This document shows positions 22,867-30,336 of a stretch of DNA of 46,136 nt, in pieces. The translations under genes and the position numbers were made by a program. The stretch's first letter is position 1. Each line of letters opens with the position of its first letter. Source of the DNA: Terriglobia bacterium (GTDB lineage: Bacteria > Acidobacteriota > Terriglobia > Bryobacterales > Bryobacteraceae); the NCBI GenBank assembly GCA_025350105.1, contig JANXYJ010000187.1:1-46136 (forward strand), written 5' to 3'. The notes beneath the pieces are model-generated. The model was not told the DNA's origin and ran no database searches. It saw only the letters and a list, made by a program, of their open reading frames with translations.

Positions 22867-23215
22867 CGGCGAGCCGGTTCCGAACGCCCGATTGGTAAGA
22901 GCATTTTCTCATCCAAGAATGAGCCTGAAGGAGTGACGATCAGGCGGGTGAGGTGCTGGGCTCCTTTCTTGGTTTTTGGGATAGGAAGAGGGATCGCGCT
23001 GCAAAATCTGTTGCGTCGCCGGCCCGGCCCTTCAAACTGGCTCGCCTCACTGGCCTGCAGCAAACCTCAGTTTTCCTCCAGGCTCTGCGCTCTCCCCTGC
23101 TTGCATGCGGATGATCAATCCCCAGCATCCGCTCCCCCTCCTCCTTCATGCTTATGCTGCATTCGACAAGACTGGATCAGGCGCGAAAGCAGTAGGCGTG
23201 CTACACTCTAATTTC
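22867..23215. other. Non-coding stretch before the his leader
   Basis: About 350 bases with no convincing gene. A 66-codon frame on the minus strand (22863-23063) has no ribosome-binding site and no recognisable family. The right-hand end carries a possible -10 box for the his leader. No terminator for the lipoprotein gene stands out. Confidence 0.6.
23202..23207 (+). promoter_or_regulatory. Candidate -10 element of the his operon
   Basis: TACACT lies 8 bases before the ATG of the His-rich leader peptide. No Shine-Dalgarno precedes that ATG, so transcription may begin at or within about two bases of it. A matching -35 box was not found. Position and consensus are the only evidence. Confidence 0.4.
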
Positions 23216-23293
23216 ATGTTCGCCGCGAAACGCCATTATCACGTCAGCCATCCGCACCACGCGCATTCCCATTTGCGGCGGGCTCACTCTTAA
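23216..23293 (+). CDS. hisL: His operon leader peptide
   Basis: A 25-codon frame, ATG 23216 to TAA 23291-23293, with eight histidine codons (positions 7, 9, 12, 14, 15, 17, 19 and 24). It lies about 110 bases before hisI, the first gene of a nine-gene his operon. The density of His codons (32 %) far exceeds chance. Together with the alternative RNA pairings and the terminator hairpin that follow, this is the arrangement of a transcription attenuator, in which ribosome stalling at His codons reports on charged tRNA-His. No Shine-Dalgarno is visible. The peptide itself is expected to have no other function. It is below the size most gene callers report. Confidence 0.88.
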   Translation: MFAAKRHYHVSHPHHAHSHLRRAHS

Positions 23294-23368
23294 TCGCTTC
23301 CTCTTTCCACAAAGACGATTTTGCAGTTTTCCGAAGAACCCGCCGGTTTAAAGACCTGGCGGGATTTT
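23221..23368 (+). promoter_or_regulatory. Histidine operon attenuator (alternative RNA pairings)
   Basis: Four segments fit the classical model. Segment 1, 23221-23229 (CGCCGCGAA, codons 2-5), pairs over 9 bp, including one G-U, with segment 2, 23272-23280. Segment 2/3: CGGCGGG at 23276-23282 pairs over 7 bp with CCCGCCG at 23339-23345, forming an antiterminator. Segment 3/4: CCCGCC at 23339-23344 pairs with GGCGGG at 23358-23363, forming the terminator. Seven of the eight His codons lie between segments 1 and 2. A ribosome stalled there masks segment 1 and frees segment 2 to pair with 3. A ribosome reaching the stop codon masks segment 2 and lets the terminator form. Pairings were read by eye; no energies were calculated. 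Confidence 0.82.
23339..23368 (+). terminator. Attenuator terminator upstream of hisI
   Basis: The stem CCCGCC/GGCGGG is extended by GGT/ACC with one bulged T and a 6-base loop (TTAAAG), then ATTTT. The U tract is short (four), so termination may be partial. The hairpin sits 34 bases before the hisI ATG. Confidence 0.8.
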
Positions 23369-23401
23369 GCGTGAATACGGACTAGAAAAAGGACACTGAC
23401 C

Positions 23402-23779
23402 ATGCAACTGGACTTCAAAAAATTGGACGGACTTCTTCCCGCAATCATCCAGGATCATCAAAGCGGCCGCGTTCTAATGCTGGGCTTCATGAACGAGGAA
23501 GCGTTCCAAAAGACCGTGGAAACGGGCTTCGCCACATTTTATAGCCGTAGCCGCAACAAACTCTGGTTGAAGGGCGAAAGCTCCGGTCACAAATTGGTGG
23601 TCAAAGAAATCAGCACCGATTGCGATGTCGACACGGTGCTGGTGAAAGTGGAAGCGCTGGGCCCTGGCGTCTGCCACGAAGGTTACCAAAGTTGTTTTTA
23701 TCGCCGTTTGGAAAAAGACGGCGAATGGAAAGTGACAGAAGAACGCTCCTACGATCCAGCCAAAGTATACGATAGCTAA
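23402..23779 (+). CDS. hisI: Phosphoribosyl-AMP cyclohydrolase
   Basis: A 125-residue metalloenzyme that opens the purine ring of phosphoribosyl-AMP, the third step of histidine synthesis. [34 protein letters not shown] and the zinc cysteines in [13 protein letters not shown] and [14 protein letters not shown] are all present. The protein is the single-function form: there is no fused HisE pyrophosphatase domain. ATG at 23402 follows AAAGGA at 8 bases. It is the first structural gene after the attenuator, and its stop is separated from hisG by one base. Confidence 0.97.
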
Positions 23780-23780
23780 C

Positions 23781-24650
23781 ATGAAACTCAAATTAGGAAT
23801 TCCCAAGGGCAGTCTGGAAACCGCGACGGTGGATTTGTTTCGCCGCGCCGGTTTTCAAATCACCATCAATAGCCGCTCCTACTTTCCGGCGATTGACGAT
23901 CCGGAAATTGAGTGCATGCTGATTCGCGCGCAAGAGATGGCCCGCTATGTGCAGGACGGCGTGCTGGACGCTGGCTTGACGGGCCGCGACTGGGTGGAGG
24001 AGAACGAAGCTGATGTGGAACGCGTGGCCGATCTGGTTTACGCCAAACAGAGCTTTGGCAAAGTACGATGGGTGCTGGCCGTTCCCGAATCTTCGCCTTT
24101 TCAATCGGTGAAAGATTTGAACGGGAAAGTGATCGCCACGGAATTAGTCGCCGCCACGAAGCGCTACCTGGAACGCAACGGCGTGACGGCGAAAGTGGAA
24201 TTCAGTTGGGGTGCGACGGAAGTGAAGCCACCGACTTTGGCCGACGCCATTGTGGAGGTGACCGAAACCGGCTCATCGCTGCGCGCCAATAAGCTGCGCA
24301 TTATTGAAACCGTGATGGAGTCGAACACGCAGCTGATCGCTAATACAAATTCCTGGAAGGACCCTGTTAAGAGACAAAAACTGGAAGACATCAAAATGCT
24401 GCTGGAAGGAGCCATCAACGCTTTAGGGAAAGTGGGCTTGCTTTTGAACGTAGCGCAGAAGGACCTGAAAACGGTGGTGGAAATTCTGGGCGGACTGAAA
24501 GGCCCAACCATTTCGCCGCTGAGTGAAGACGGCTGGCTGGCGCTCAATACGATTCTGGAAGAATCTAAAGTGCGCAGCATTATTCCGCGCCTGAAGGCAG
24601 CGGGCGCGCAGGGAATTGTGGAATATCCACTGAACAAAATCATCATGTAG
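23781..24650 (+). CDS. hisG: ATP phosphoribosyltransferase, long form
   Basis: A 289-residue enzyme for the first, committed step (ATP + PRPP). [21 protein letters not shown] and the catalytic domain with [10 protein letters not shown] and [17 protein letters not shown] mark the family. Residues about 215-289 form the C-terminal regulatory domain of the long form, which binds histidine for feedback inhibition, so no HisZ partner is needed. The operon is therefore likely controlled both by attenuation and by enzyme inhibition. It starts one base after hisI. Confidence 0.97.
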
Positions 24651-24665
24651 CGGACTTAGAGAATA

Positions 24666-25895
24666 ATGATTCGGATTTTAGATCACAAGGATGCGGGCTT
24701 TCTGGTCCAACGCAAAACCGCTCGACTGGAAGAAGCGGAGCGTGCGGTTGCGCCGATTCTCGCCGCCATTCGCGAGCGTGGCGATGAAGCTTTGCTGGAA
24801 TACGCGCGCAAGTTTGACGGCTTCGCTGGCACAAGCGTCAAGATCGACATTCGGGGAGCACTCTCCAGTTCATTCGAGAAAGCTGTCGCGGCGGCCGCAA
24901 AGAACATTCGCAGCTACGCAGAAGCGCAATTGCCGCGCGAATGGTTTGTGAATGAAGCCGATGGTCGGCGCTTAGGACAAATCATCCGTCCGCTGGATGC
25001 GATGGGTGCGTACGTTCCAGCTGGCCGCTATCCCCTGCCCTCGACAATGTTGATGACCGTGATTCCCGCGCAAGTGGCAGGCGTGGCGACAACCTGTGTC
25101 GCCTGTCCCAATCCAAGCCCCGAAATCATGGGCATTGCCGAGTGGCTGGGCGTGACGCATATGTTTAAAATGGGCGGCGCGCAAGCCATCGCGGCACTGG
25201 CGTACGGAACCGAAACTGTTCCGAAGGTGGATCGGATTGTCGGGCCCGGCAACATTTACGTAGCCGCCGCGAAGAAATTGATCGCGGGGGAAACCGGAAT
25301 CGATTTTGTCGCCGGACCAACCGAAATCGTGATCATCGCCGTCGACGGAAATCCCAAATGGATTGCGGCGGACTTACTGGCGCAAGCCGAGCACGACGTA
25401 GATGCGTCGGCCATTCTCCTGACCACATCGCGCACCCTTGCTCAGCATGTTGCCGATGAAGTGGATCTGCAATTGTCGACACTGCCCACGGCCGGGGTGG
25501 CTCGACCGTCGATCAACAATAACGGAGCGATTGTGATTGTCGACTCGCTGGATCAGGCAGTGGAGCTATCCAATCAACTTGCGCCGGAACATTTGGCACT
25601 GCATGATGGTTCGCTGTTAGACAAAATCCGCCACGCAGGCGCGGTCTTCATTGGACCTACCAGCACAGAGGCCGCAGGCGATTACGCATCTGGTCCCAAT
25701 CACGTTTTGCCAACTTCCGGTGCGGCGCGTTTGCGAGGAGGATTGTCAGCAGCGGATTTCGTCAAGGTGATTGCGGTGCAGGAACTCTCCGCTGAAGGCT
25801 TGACACTTTTGACTCCGACCATCACGGCACTGGCACGCGCCGAGGGGCTTGAGGCACACGCCAGGTCAGCAGAAGTGAGAAACAGCCATGGCTGA
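24666..25895 (+). CDS. hisD: Histidinol dehydrogenase
   Basis: A 409-residue Zn- and NAD-dependent enzyme that oxidises histidinol to histidine in two steps, the end of the pathway. RIVGPGNIYVAAAKKL, DFVAGPTEIVIIA, LLAQAEHDVDASAIL (Zn ligands) and LAPEHLALHD are diagnostic. Length is slightly below the usual 430, by a shorter N terminus. It lies 15 bases after hisG and overlaps hisC by 8 bases. Confidence 0.97.
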   Translation: MIRILDHKDAGFLVQRKTARLEEAERAVAPILAAIRERGDEALLEYARKFDGFAGTSVKIDIRGALSSSFEKAVAAAAKNIRSYAEAQLPREWFVNEADGRRLGQIIRPLDAMGAYVPAGRYPLPSTMLMTVIPAQVAGVATTCVACPNPSPEIMGIAEWLGVTHMFKMGGAQAIAALAYGTETVPKVDRIVGPGNIYVAAAKKLIAGETGIDFVAGPTEIVIIAVDGNPKWIAADLLAQAEHDVDASAILLTTSRTLAQHVADEVDLQLSTLPTAGVARPSINNNGAIVIVDSLDQAVELSNQLAPEHLALHDGSLLDKIRHAGAVFIGPTSTEAAGDYASGPNHVLPTSGAARLRGGLSAADFVKVIAVQELSAEGLTLLTPTITALARAEGLEAHARSAEVRNSHG

Positions 25896-26949
25896 GTTTC
25901 TGACGCCGCGCCCGGCAGTGCGCGAAATGGCGCCGTATTCTCCGCCCACCGGCGGGCGCTCCGACAAGTTGCGCTTGGACTTCAACGAGAACACCGTTGG
26001 CTGTTCGCCAAAAGTGATTTCGTTTTTGAAGGACAAACTCACGGCGAGTGCGCTTACCATTTATCCCGAATACGTGGAGGCGAGGCAGGAGCTTGCCGCC
26101 TACTTCGGGGTGGAGCCCGCTGAGTTAATAATGACCAACGGCACTGACGAAGCAATTCAAGTGTTGGTGAATACGTTCGTCGACGACGGTGATGAAGTGC
26201 TGTTGCTGAAGCCGTCCTATGCGATGTATCGTTTTTATTCCGAACTTGCGGGAGCGAAAGTTCGCGAGGTGGAATATGACCAGAAAGACTTGGCGTTTCC
26301 GCTGCAGGCCGTGCTGTCTGCCATCACACCGGAAACCAGGGCGATCTTCGTCGCCAATCCCAATAATCCTACGGGCACGGGCATGGACCTGCGTGGCGTG
26401 AAAATGATACTGGACGCCGCGCCGCACGCTGCGGTGTTGATCGACGAAGCGTATTTCGAATTTTGCGGCATCACCGCGCTACCGTTCCTGCGACAATTCC
26501 CGAATTTGTTTGTGAGCAGGACTTTTTCCAAAGTCTTTGGTATGGCCGCCATGCGCTGCGGTGTGTTGCTTTCCTGCGCGGAAAACATTCGCTGGATGCA
26601 CAAAGCGCAATCACCGTATAGCGTAAACATGCTGGCGGCATTGGCCGCCCGCGCGGCCATTCAAGATCGCGAATACGTCAGCGAGTATGTAAAAGAAGTG
26701 CTGACCGCGCGCGAACTGGTTTATCAGGGCCTCAGCCGCCTGGGCATTCCGTTCTATCAAAGCCAGGCGAATTTTGTATTATTCCGCGTCGGCAGCCGCG
26801 CGGTTCCGTTGCGCGACGGACTGCGTACGCGCGGGGTTCTGGTCCGCGACCGCAGCTACGAAATCCCGGGATGCGTGCGCGTCACCATCGGCAGTTGCGA
26901 ACAGATCCAACGCTTTCTAGCGGAGTTGGAGGATTTGTGGATCCACTAG
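25888..26949 (+). CDS. hisC: Histidinol-phosphate aminotransferase
   Basis: A 353-residue class I/II PLP aminotransferase that converts imidazole-acetol phosphate to histidinol phosphate. RLDFNENTVGCSPKV, MTNGTDEAIQVLV, ANPNNPTGT, LIDEAYFEF and the PLP lysine in SRTFSKVFGMAAMRCGVLL fit HisC. Its start overlaps hisD by 8 bases and its end overlaps the HAD gene by 13, consistent with tight translational coupling. Confidence 0.96.
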   Translation: MAEFLTPRPAVREMAPYSPPTGGRSDKLRLDFNENTVGCSPKVISFLKDKLTASALTIYPEYVEARQELAAYFGVEPAELIMTNGTDEAIQVLVNTFVDDGDEVLLLKPSYAMYRFYSELAGAKVREVEYDQKDLAFPLQAVLSAITPETRAIFVANPNNPTGTGMDLRGVKMILDAAPHAAVLIDEAYFEFCGITALPFLRQFPNLFVSRTFSKVFGMAAMRCGVLLSCAENIRWMHKAQSPYSVNMLAALAARAAIQDREYVSEYVKEVLTARELVYQGLSRLGIPFYQSQANFVLFRVGSRAVPLRDGLRTRGVLVRDRSYEIPGCVRVTIGSCEQIQRFLAELEDLWIH

Positions 26950-27659
26950 CATCCCCCAAGACCTCATCCCTCATCATCTTTGACATGGACGGCGTGCTGG
27001 CGGAAGTAACCGAATCCTATCGCGAATCGATTGTCCAGACGGTAAAACATTTCACCGGCAAAACGATTGATCGCGATCTGATTCAGGACTACAAAAATCA
27101 GGGCGGCTGGAACAACGATTGGGCGCTATCGCAAAAGATTGCGGCGGACCTGGGCGTCACGGTGGACTATCAGTCAGTGGTGGATCAGTTTAACGTGTTC
27201 TTCCTGGGCACAGACGGCACCTATCGGGACGGACTGATTCAGCGCGAAAGGTGGTTCCCTCAGCCAAGACTGCTGGACCGCCTGGCCGCGGGTCATCGCC
27301 TCGCTATTTACACTGGCCGTCTGCGTTATGAGGCCGAGATCACGCTGAAGCGCTTTGCACCCGGCATGACCTTCGATCCTCTGATATGCGCTGATGATGT
27401 GCGCGTAGGCAAACCGGATCCGGAAGGCCTAATTACGATTTTGAAAGCCACATCCACTCTGAAAACGACATCGGCGCGAAAAGTTTGGTACGTGGGAGAT
27501 ACGGTGGATGATGCACGCTGCGCGCGAGCGGCCGGGGTACCGTTCATCGGAATCGCCGCCGCGGGCCACACCAAGCGTGACGAATTGATTCAGCTTTTCA
27601 AAAACGAATACGCCATTGCAGTGCTGGAGAACATCAACGAGATTGAGGGGGCGCTGTGA
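26937..27659 (+). CDS. HAD-family phosphatase in the his operon, candidate histidinol-phosphatase
   Basis: A 240-residue HAD superfamily hydrolase. Motif I is [15 protein letters not shown] (Asp nucleophile and Asp+2), motif [11 protein letters not shown], motif III the Lys of VGKPDPEG, and motif [22 protein letters not shown] helical cap lies between I and II, so it is a subfamily IA-type enzyme, not the HisB-N type. The start is GTG at 26937, with GGAGG five bases upstream inside hisC. Its end overlaps hisB by 4 bases. No histidinol-phosphatase (HisN, HisB-N or PHP-type HisK) is otherwise encoded here, so I infer this enzyme may supply that step. It could instead be a phosphoglycolate-type house-cleaning enzyme. 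Confidence 0.85.
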
Positions 27660-28255
27660 GAAGACACATTCGGAAAGCCAGCATTGAGCGCCTGACCACG
27701 GAAACCCAGATCAGCGGCAACCTGACGATTGAGGGCAGCGGCAAATACAACGTTTCGACTGGAATCCGTTTTTTTGATCACATGCTGGAATTGTTCACCA
27801 AGCATGGCGGATTCGATCTGACGCTGAAGGCCAACGGAGATTTGGACGTGGACCAACACCACACCGTGGAAGATGTGGGTATTGCGTTGGGGCAGTTATT
27901 CGCTAAGGCGCTCGGCGATCGCAAGGGCATCAACCGCGCTGGCTATTTTGTGTTGCCGATGGATGAAACGCTCGCGGTAGTGGCGGTGGATCTGGGCGGG
28001 CGGCCTGCTTTGGTTTACAAAGACCTGGTGAAGGTGCGGCTGGTGGGTGATTTGCAAACCGAGTTGGTGGAGGATTTCTTCGGCGGCTTTGTCAATCACG
28101 CCGGGGCGAACTTGCACGCGAAGATTCTCTACGGACGGTCGAATCATCATAAGATTGAGGCCATTTTCAAGTGTTTCGCGCGAGCGATGCGTTATGCCAG
28201 CTCGCATGATGAACGGTTGAAGAATTTGCTCCCGTCGACCAAGGGCCTCTTATGA
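27656..28255 (+). CDS. hisB: Imidazoleglycerol-phosphate dehydratase
   Basis: A 199-residue Mn-dependent dehydratase (single-function form, without a phosphatase domain). The two metal-binding repeats are seen as [16 protein letters not shown] and [18 protein letters not shown], and [16 protein letters not shown] is typical. It starts at GTG 27656, overlapping the HAD stop by 4 bases (GTGA), and overlaps hisH by 4 bases (ATGA). Confidence 0.97.
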
Positions 28256-28845
28256 TTTCGATCTTTGACTACGGCGCCGGTAATCTGCGGTCGGTGGAAA
28301 ATACGCTGGGGGCGATTGGCGCCCCTTATATGCTCATCCGCAAGCCTGAGGAACTTCGCGCAGCCACGAAGCTGATTCTACCCGGGGTGTGGCACTTCGG
28401 GCAGATGATGCGCGCACTGAATGAAATGAAGGTGCGGCAGGCGCTGAGCGAAACGATTCAGAGGGGGGTTCCGTTTTTGGGCATCTGCCTGGGATTACAG
28501 GCTTTGTTCACCGGCAGCGAAGAAGCTCCCGAAGAAAAGGGGCTGGGACTATTTCAGGGAACGGTCCGGCGGTTTCAAGGAGACATGCGGATACCGCACA
28601 TGGGCTGGAATCAACTGGAACGGCGGCGCGAATCGAGGCTCCTGAACGGCACCGGCGATCAACCGTATCTGTACTTCGCACACAGCTACTATGCGCCGGT
28701 GGTGGACGCGACCTCGGCAGTGTGTGAGTACTCACTGGCTTACACCGCCGTGCTGGAGCACAACAATATGAGTGGTGTACAATTTCACCCCGAAAAATCG
28801 GGTGATTTGGGATTGCGCATCGTCCGCAATTTTGTGGAGAGCTGA
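28252..28845 (+). CDS. hisH: Imidazole glycerol phosphate synthase, glutaminase subunit HisH
   Basis: A 197-residue class I glutamine amidotransferase that supplies ammonia to HisF. The nucleophile Cys is in [12 protein letters not shown], and the His-Glu pair is in [26 protein letters not shown] opens the protein. The family's LPGVGAFG loop reads LPGVWHFG, a Gly-to-Trp change at a normally conserved position near the oxyanion region. ATG 28252 overlaps hisB by 4 bases. hisF starts 7 bases after its stop. Confidence 0.96.
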
Positions 28846-28852
28846 TCATCCC

Positions 28853-29647
28853 ATGCTGGCCAAACGCATCATTCCTTGCCTGGACGTAACCGGCGGCCGT
28901 GTCGTGAAAGGCGTCAACTTCGTGAACCTGCGTGACGCGGGCGATCCGGTGGAGTTGGCCGCGCGCTATAACGAACAGGGTGCCGACGAACTGGTCTTTC
29001 TGGACATCACTGCATCCAGCGACAATCGCGACACCATGGTGGATGTGGTGGCGCGTACCGCACGTCAGGTGTTTATTCCGCTGACCGTAGGCGGAGGGGT
29101 CCGCACGGTGGATGACGCGCGTAAAATTCTACACGCCGGTGCCGACAAGGTGAGCGTGAACACAGCGGCAGTACGGAGGCCAGAGTTGATCACTGAGTTG
29201 TCGAACGAGTTTGGCGCACAGGCGGTGGTTTTGGCCATCGATGCCCGTAGAAACATCGATGCTCGTAGAAACATCGATGCTCGAAGAGAGTCACCGGGGA
29301 CGTGGAACGTCTTTACCAAAGGCGGCCGTCACGATGAAGGGATGGATGCGGTGGAATGGGCGGCGCATGGCGAGCAACTGGGCGCGGGGGAAATTCTGTT
29401 GACGTCCATGGATACCGACGGCGTTCAGACCGGTTTCGATTGCCCTCTTACTGACGCCGTGAGATCGGCCACACGCATTCCGGTGATTGCTTCCGGCGGC
29501 GCGGGCAAGCCGGAAGACTTCTTCGAAGTTTTGCAAAACGCCGGTGCCGATGCCGCGCTGGCTGCCTCCATCTTTCACTACGGAACATATTCGGTAGGCG
29601 ACCTCAAAACATTTCTGGCCCAACGGAAAGTAGTGGTGCGCTGGTGA
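28853..29647 (+). CDS. hisF: Imidazole glycerol phosphate synthase, cyclase subunit HisF, with internal triplication
   Basis: A 264-residue TIM-barrel cyclase that closes the imidazole ring with ammonia from HisH. Asp11 in [16 protein letters not shown] is one catalytic residue. The second, Asp130 (in [10 protein letters not shown]), is at exactly the position known in the Thermotoga enzyme. Here the six residues NIDARR are repeated in tandem, so that IDARR occurs three times and Asp130, Asp136 and Asp142 are all candidates. The rest ([39 protein letters not shown]) is normal. The start is ATG 28853, judged by alignment of [12 protein letters not shown]. It overlaps hisA by 4 bases. Confidence 0.96.
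29237..29290 (+). repeat. 18-bp x 3 tandem repeat inside hisF
   Basis: Three 18-bp units at 29237-29254, 29255-29272 and 29273-29290. Units 1 and 2 differ at one base (ATCGATGCCCGTAGAAAC versus ATCGATGCTCGTAGAAAC) and unit 3 diverges only in its last bases. The array is in frame, adds 12 residues to HisF and covers the codon for the catalytic Asp. Confidence 0.95.
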
Positions 29648-30336
29648 TTATCCCTTGTATTGATTTGATGGAAGGCAAAGTAGTGCAACTGGTGCAGGGC
29701 CGCGATAAGGCGCTGGAGGGCGACTTACCCGCTGAAATGCTGAAGAAGTTTTCGGCGTTCCCGGAGATTCAGGTGATCGATCTGGATGCGGCCATGGGTA
29801 CCGACGAGAACTCCGCGCTGGTGGAATTTCTCGCAAGCAAAGCCCGGTGCCGAGTGGGTGGAGGAGTGCGCACACCGGAGCGCGCGCGCAAGCTGATCGA
29901 GCAAGGCGCGCATCGTGTGATCGTCGGTACGGCTGCGTTTACGCCGGTGATCCATGACATTGCCGCCGCGGTTGGTACCGAGAGAGTAGTGATTGCGCTC
30001 GATTCCAAACACGGGAAGATTGTGGTGAAAGGCTGGCAGGAATCGACCGACCTGACGGCTGAGGAAGTGATTGGCCGGCTGGAACCGCTGTGCGGCGGCT
30101 TTCTGTGCACCTATGTGGACAAAGAAGGCATGATGCAGGGCACGGATCTAGACTGGTTCCGCCGCTTGCGCGCCGCGACGAAACACGAAATCACGGCGGC
30201 CGGCGGAATCACGACCACAGACGACATTCGCCAACTGACCGCGATGAATATCAACTCAGCCTTAGGCATGGCCATCTACACCGGACGGTTGGATTTGGCG
30301 GAACTGGCGCAGATGAATCGATCTTCGAAGACCTAA
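29644..30336 (+). CDS. hisA: ProFAR isomerase HisA
   Basis: A 230-residue (beta/alpha)8 isomerase of the fourth pathway step. [18 protein letters not shown] carries the catalytic Asp near residue 7, [20 protein letters not shown] and [16 protein letters not shown] are the phosphate-binding loops, and the second catalytic Asp would lie in [14 protein letters not shown]. The start is GTG 29644, overlapping hisF by 4 bases. It is the last gene of the operon and is followed by a hairpin shared with ftsH. Confidence 0.93.

Follow-up and report, generated by a model that had tools for sequence, protein, structure and literature searches.

We conclude with high confidence that the histidine biosynthesis genes in a 46,136-nt stretch of DNA from a Terriglobia bacterium (Acidobacteriota), hereafter the window, are controlled by a transcription attenuator in which the position of a ribosome reports the supply of charged tRNA-His. 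Under this model the his genes would very probably be switched on when histidine runs short. As expected of an attenuator, a short frame rich in codons for the amino acid made by the pathway, i.e. histidine, precedes the biosynthetic operon. The frame, the alternative pairings of its transcript, their conservation and the promoter spacing were all observed in silico. The mechanism is known; the lineage and the probable leaderless start are new as far as could be seen.

The leader region of the his operon

Translation of the frame upstream of hisI gave MFAAKRHYHVSHPHHAHSHLRRAHS followed by a stop codon, bearing out an initial annotation of this DNA that had placed a 25-codon leader with eight His codons before hisI. 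The first structural gene begins 108 nt after the end of the frame and heads a row of nine genes in the order hisI-hisG-hisD-hisC-HAD phosphatase-hisB-hisH-hisF-hisA; their spacing suggests that they are co-transcribed. The HAD-type hydrolase gene between hisC and hisB (26964–27656) scored 137.7 bits with TIGR01548, for which the cut-off is 140.2, and perhaps encodes histidinol-phosphate phosphatase. Within hisF, a short tandem repeat (29237–29287, residues 129–145 of the protein) is apparently an in-frame repeat insertion. The same genome carries a second hisD-like gene elsewhere (G000:C22:43875-45122, 37% identity).

Table 1. Features of the his leader and operon in the window
Feature	Position	Strand	Remarks
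Extended -10 promoter element, TGC-TACACT	23199–23207	+	8 nt before leader ATG; from sequence
Leader peptide frame, stop TAA	23216–23293	+	25 codons, 8 His; probable leaderless start
Segment 1, within first five codons of leader	23218–23229	+	RNAfold, 12 bp with 23272–23283
Segment 2, close to leader stop	23272–23283	+	Partner is segment 1, or segment 3 via 23276–23282
Segment 3, 5' arm of terminator hairpin	23339–23348	+	Hairpin fold, duplex energies
Segment 4, 3' arm of terminator hairpin, one bulged base	23353–23363	+	Hairpin fold
Short U tract, ATTTT	23364–23368	+	Weak in window, longer in most relatives
hisI, phosphoribosyl-AMP cyclohydrolase, first structural gene	23402–23779	+	NF000768, 155.5 bits (cut-off 126)
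hisG, hisD, hisC, HAD-type phosphatase, hisB, hisH, hisF, hisA	23781–30336	+	Remainder of operon

Three pairings had been claimed for this leader. That between segments 1 and 2, first given as 9 bp, is real and longer, extending over 12 bp in RNAfold. The 7-bp pairing between segments 2 and 3 is an exact complement, CGGCGGG (23276–23282) with CCCGCCG (23339–23345), and the best 2:3 duplex has an energy of -16.5 kcal/mol. The claimed 3:4 terminator (23339–23363) folds as a hairpin at -15.7 kcal/mol. It is directly followed by ATTTTG, with only four U in a row; because of this short run, the hairpin was not listed by a simple terminator scan of 23000–23500, which requires at least five T in eight. 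The fold of the window alone was not significant when compared with shuffled sequences (z -1.48), as 15 of 200 shuffles were equally good. Since the fold was no better than many shuffles and the U tract was short, comparison with relatives had to decide.

We infer leader translation, termination and the histidine response to proceed in the following way. Judged from the promoter, the transcription start would coincide with the leader AUG or lie no more than about 3 nt away, and a 70S ribosome would begin the leader at the very 5' end of the RNA. When histidine is ample, the ribosome would reach the stop codon and cover segment 2, so that segments 3 and 4 would pair and RNA polymerase would terminate short of hisI. 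A shortage of His-tRNA would hold the ribosome on the early His codons, where it would cover segment 1; segment 2 would then be free to capture segment 3, no terminator would form and the operon would be transcribed. With no ribosome on the leader, the 1:2 pairing would form in the window, permitting the terminator.

His-rich frames and the leader start among relatives

A search of 61 genomes located hisI in 57. A further 80 hisI loci were taken as the best 80 of 429, titled mostly Bryobacterales, Bryobacteraceae or Acidobacteria MAGs, and the best named hisI relatives were MAGs of Bryobacterales or Bryobacteraceae, in agreement with the acidobacterial lineage proposed initially. Removal of 19 duplicates from the total of 138 hisI loci left 119 distinct upstream regions. 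Frames of 10–45 codons with at least three His were accepted, and the choice among alternative starts was made partly by promoter score. By this measure, 101 of the 119 regions carried a His-rich short frame upstream of hisI. In the window's genus, hisI was located in 19 genomes, the window's own among them, and every one of these had the frame. Stricter criteria that made no use of promoter score retained the frame in 96 of the 119 regions; at this threshold, the controls gave one positive among 595 shuffled regions and one among 119 regions on the opposite strand. The same strict test applied to twelve further residues (all except His and A, G, L, P, R, S and V) gave 0–2 of 119. Although the fold energy of the window is unremarkable, the excess of the frame over shuffles indicates that the observation is more than chance.

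The frame was missing from 18 regions. Thirteen of these belong to family f3, in which six other regions do carry the frame, and they include all 11 genomes of genus g17 (e.g. L026–L028, L030–L032 and L038), a genus of the same order in which no leader precedes hisI. L016, also without the frame, has an incomplete upstream region, and the short frame of L078 has two His, below our criterion. L013 and L115 likewise show no frame upstream of hisI. In L025 (G023:C67) the -10 box and the terminator upstream of hisI are kept with no leader frame between them, and this operon, as drawn, would always face the terminator. Locus L111 (CALQCC020000041.1), titled as a Bordetella parapertussis MAG, has a Bryobacterales-like hisI locus and probably comes from a mislabelled MAG.

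Within 50 nt of the 101 leader starts we found 89 hexamers having T1, A2 and T6 and matching TATACT in at least five of six positions. The hexamer ended 8–9 nt before the ATG in 77 of the 89 cases, the start having been chosen without promoter information. A count based on the best hexamer (86 of 101 at a gap of 8–9) was set aside: its ties had been broken towards gap 8. When 88 leaders were aligned on the -10 element, an upstream TG that had not been selected for was conserved at 84% and 95%, respectively, and no conserved -35 was apparent in this alignment. A simple promoter scan of 23000–23500, which requires a -35 hexamer, reported no promoter. In the non-redundant set of 94 leaders, a Shine-Dalgarno core preceded a single leader start. 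Such cores arose at a rate of 9% when the local sequence was shuffled, and 19 of the 94 hisI starts had one. The position of the -10 box 8–9 nt before the leader ATG, together with the near absence of Shine-Dalgarno cores, suggests that the mRNA is probably leaderless, with translation of the leader beginning at its 5' end. The initial annotation did not note this putative start, and its reading is to be corrected on this point.

The accessible text of a survey of leaderless genes (PMC3160421) predicts such genes in all three acidobacterial genomes included, at an average of 13.3%, and reads TANNNT around 12 bp (about 10–12 bp) upstream of a start as the sign of a leaderless, TA-led gene. By sequence, the leader falls into this TA-led class as there described, with TANNNT upstream and no Shine-Dalgarno. 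Of 24 further loci, drawn from family f11 and from other families beyond the class, 20 had TANNNT at a gap of 7–10 nt to the ATG (shuffles, 4%). Three of the four box-less loci belong to family f17 (L310, L312 and L316, upstream of hisD) and have a Shine-Dalgarno core instead. Addition of six ATG-start loci from families f34 and f38 brought the TANNNT box to 22 of 30; both f38 loci were positive, and four f34 leaders had neither box nor Shine-Dalgarno core.

Alternatively, the same attenuator could have an ordinary 5' UTR with a ribosome-binding site of non-canonical type, in which case the box upstream of the ATG would not be the promoter. We consider this rather unlikely. Exact TATACT-N7-10-ATG is not enriched in the window's own genome (25 sites, compared with 29 in a reversed-pattern control), which speaks for this alternative and is the reason why leaderlessness is argued here from the his locus and not from the genome; the three f17 leaders with Shine-Dalgarno-like sequence and the four f34 leaders lacking both signals also favor it. 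A normal 5' UTR is nevertheless difficult to reconcile with the unselected TG, which makes the -10 an extended one, with the narrow spacing of the boxes, with the single Shine-Dalgarno core among 94 leaders and with the recurrence of the box in the additional loci.

Competing stems and ribosome position

All 101 leaders (window included) contain a hairpin of -8 kcal/mol or better followed by at least four T in the next eight nucleotides; this threshold is loose because 94 of 303 shuffles reach it. At -14 kcal/mol with the same T-rich tail, the count was 99 of 101 leaders compared with 16 of 303 shuffles, and at least five T in the eight nucleotides after the hairpin were found in 90 of the 101 leaders (window included). 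An intrinsic terminator before hisI is accordingly predicted. The hairpin might instead act by translational attenuation, hiding the hisI ribosome-binding site. Such a role would suit the weak U tract of the window and the 6 of 101 leaders in which the hairpin ends no more than 8 nt before hisI, but 88 of the 101 hairpins end at least 15 nt before hisI (38 nt in the window) and at least five T follow in 90 of the 101. We therefore regard translational attenuation as highly improbable and retain transcription termination as the preferred reading.

The core of segment 2, CGGGC, was present near the frame end in 59 of the 94 leaders; in windows of equal size taken from these loci its frequency was 10%. 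It is read in all three frames (44, 6 and 9 leaders), indicating selection at the RNA level, i.e. RNA rather than peptide is kept. Over the 101 leaders, segment 1 starts a median of 5 nt after the frame start, the first His codon lies at a median of nt 21 and segment 2 ends a median of 7 nt before the frame end. The best 2:3 duplexes have a median energy of -18.8 kcal/mol. Compared with codon shuffles the best-duplex z values are modest, with medians of -1.0 for 2:3 and -1.6 for 1:2.

Fifty of the 94 leaders were aligned, and the 3:4 pairs were kept in 40–50 of the 50. The 2:3 pairs hold in 43–50 of 50 at seven positions and in 27 of 33 at one, while at one further position only 12 of 50 are paired, mostly A-C. 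Pair-by-pair covariation of 1:2 on this mixed alignment was weak (23–43 of 45–50 per pair) because segment 1 lies at genus-specific distances from the ATG; for this pairing we relied instead on energies and on a stalled-ribosome model with controls. A check proposed in the initial annotation was that relatives should show His-rich frames with covarying stems. The frames (101/119) and the stems that differ in concert point that way; the 1:2 pair counts do not.

Segments that differ in concert were seen between lineages. In the genus-mates L039 and L041, a U-A pair replaces a C-G pair of the 3:4 stem (GCCCGCTGG..CCAGCGGGC). In family f11, of the same class and likewise before hisI, terminators like CCCGCTGACGCG face leader ends like GCGTGTCGGCGG. 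The f17 terminator GCCCTCCGG..CGGAGGGC goes with leader end CCGGAGGGC in L310 or CCGGAGGGT in L312 and L316, the 2:3 p-values of this family being 0.01, 0.13 and 0.14. The f17 segments CCGGAGGG/CCCTCCGG differ from those of Bryobacterales. As the f17 leader sits elsewhere, before hisD, the design may have arisen there separately, and its divergent stems need not be due to compensatory change. Over 36 loci of our own choosing (L231, L281, L317 and same-genome repeats were left out), the median z of the 2:3 pairing against codon shuffles was -2.0; in this test L309 had no comparable 2:3 pairing, and several f34 and f38 loci did not rise above the shuffles. A purine tract, GGAAAGGAC, lies directly 5' of segment 3 in many Bryobacteraceae loci (e.g. 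L075, L091 and L134) and can lengthen the terminator stem by pairing with the U tract.

For the stalled-ribosome model, the nascent RNA was folded as it stands before segment 4 is made, with the ribosome footprint held unpaired; the size of this footprint was assumed, and the folding is treated by thermodynamics and not by kinetics. In the window, pairing of segment 3 with the leader was 0.02 without a ribosome and 0.03 with the ribosome at the stop codon. It rose to 0.68 and 0.64 with the ribosome on His codons 1 and 2, was about 0.01 at His codons 3–5, 0.65 at the sixth, and 0.14 and 0.03 at the last two. By this model only some of the His codons of the window would act as a switch, i.e. the first, second and sixth and not the third to fifth.

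Across the 94 leaders, mean pairing of segment 3 with the leader was 0.83 at the first His codon, 0.49 at the stop codon and 0.65 without a ribosome; the corresponding values for codon-shuffled leaders were 0.59, 0.54 and 0.65. The difference between first His codon and stop codon exceeded the control in 84 of the 94 leaders (Wilcoxon p 2.5e-13, a value that overstates independence because the leaders are related). Relatives without a ribosome often keep the 2:3 pairing, their mean of 0.65 being equal to that of the shuffles, which indicates that the 1:2 protector is weaker there than in the window. Folding with a stalled ribosome had been suggested as a check at the outset, and in the model a stall at the first His codon does free segment 2 to capture segment 3, beyond what codon shuffles give. 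Conservation, concerted differences among the segments and the stall model with its control all support the three-state logic read initially from complementarity. Terminator and antiterminator pairings are predicted to be mutually exclusive and tied to the position of the ribosome.

These results also bear on the idea that the frame encodes a functional His-rich, metal-binding peptide and that the hairpin is an ordinary terminator. The His-rich peptide is conserved and its ends partly so (e.g. RRAHS in the genus), but the peptide ends vary between families, the segment 2 motif occurs in three reading frames, the frame sits before his genes and the stall model beats shuffles of the same codon composition. 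We consider a peptide function extremely unlikely and the attenuator reading is kept.

Known systems and distribution in the phylum

No Rfam family reached its cut-off in the leader region or in 17 relatives of this locus. The covariance model of His_leader (RF00514) had no match at its gathering score in the window and none at E ≤ 10 for 23180–23410; neither this model nor that of the T-box (RF00230) matched any of the 17 relatives, and the T-box was likewise not matched in the leader region. The likeness to the enterobacterial his attenuator drawn in the initial annotation consequently holds for the three-state logic and fails for the Rfam His_leader model. The gammaproteobacterial his operon does not begin with hisI as here, but with hisG, and compared with the layout of the E. 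coli his attenuator the four segments here have a trp-like arrangement. Control by a His T-box or another known riboswitch can be dismissed almost entirely: his genes are described under T-boxes in Firmicutes and Actinobacteria in the accessible text of PMC9413887, but no Rfam family reached its cut-off in this region or in the related loci.

As described in the text available from PMC3896937 and PMC9413887, the gammaproteobacterial attenuator (hisL of E. coli and Salmonella) shares with the present one a short His-rich leader frame, competing hairpins and a terminator before the his operon; it differs in that the leader here probably has a leaderless start and matches no Rfam model. A predicted His leader peptide with terminator and antiterminator hairpins is shared with the Firmicutes attenuators of the B. 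cereus group, some Eubacteriales and Erysipelotrichales (PMC9413887, accessible text), and a predicted His leader peptide with a terminator is shared with that before hisS/hisZ in bacilli (PMC2965389, likewise). The Firmicutes attenuators belong to another phylum and, in the same text of PMC9413887, to 17 genomes, compared with many families here; they are set apart by description, not by sequence. The leaderless polycysteine frames of mycobacteria (Canestrari et al. 2020, as cited in the accessible text of PMC9031893) have in common a leaderless short frame in which translation speed senses one amino acid, and differ in amino acid (cysteine, not histidine), genes and phylum.

In the portions of PMC9413887, PMC3896937 and PMC2965389 at hand, published His attenuators come from Gammaproteobacteria or other Proteobacteria and a few Firmicutes groups. 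A study of Actinobacteria, as far as its available text goes, described no RNA structure as conserved upstream of histidine operons (PMC1262725). A 2010 survey (PMC2965389), in its available text, stated that to its authors' knowledge leader-peptide systems were unshown outside Proteobacteria and Actinobacteria, added the His case in bacilli, and gave an associated function for almost none of its predicted acidobacterial attenuators. We found no earlier report of a His attenuator in Acidobacteria in the accessible text of the literature searched.

At E ≤ 0.001, a covariance model built from 50 leaders had matches in 128 of 250 genomes when the class was searched and in 38 of 247 when the phylum was searched, genomes that had contributed to the model being among them; many weaker matches were partial. 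hisI adjoins the match in all of the 30 best class-search loci (L139–L168, some of them model members). The phylum search yielded 28 new loci (L169–L196), with his genes nearby in 15. The 13 loci without a nearby his gene were set aside; 12 were partial matches to the hairpin end and one (L177) was full-length. A phylum sample of 149 genomes yielded hisI in 88. Besides the window's own locus, the best 30 loci of this sample include 24 that begin with hisI. A His-rich frame is present in 22 of the 24, with only three His in the case of L231; the two f33 loci have none. Outside the class, the frame is present in families f28, f37, f46, f57, f59 and f71. Among 52 regions upstream of hisD in other his gene orders, 11 carry a His-rich frame (six in f34, three in f17 and two in f38), and hisD was read as the next gene for f17. 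As frames occur in many families and are missing in others, the device is widespread in the phylum and not universal.

Its presence in many acidobacterial families speaks against a narrow origin of the device, and an origin independent of the enterobacterial his attenuator is plausible. Tentatively, at somewhat less than even confidence, we suggest that the leaderless His attenuator is an old and widespread control element of Acidobacteriota, independent of the enterobacterial one, in which a 70S ribosome would engage the first nucleotides of the nascent RNA, and of which f17 would have a Shine-Dalgarno-led version before hisD with different segments. A leaderless start raises the question of how a ribosome that begins on a bare 5'-AUG can follow RNA polymerase closely enough along a leader of some 150 nt.

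Other amino acid operons of the relatives were searched for similar leaders. No leaderless leaders were found before ilvB (22 loci) or trpE-like genes (23 loci), in a search to which Shine-Dalgarno-led ILV leaders would be undetectable. The leuA-like genes (23 loci) gave three isolated ILV matches, none of them convincing. WW frames were seen far upstream in 4 of the 23 trpE-like loci, in a comparison made without a promoter test.
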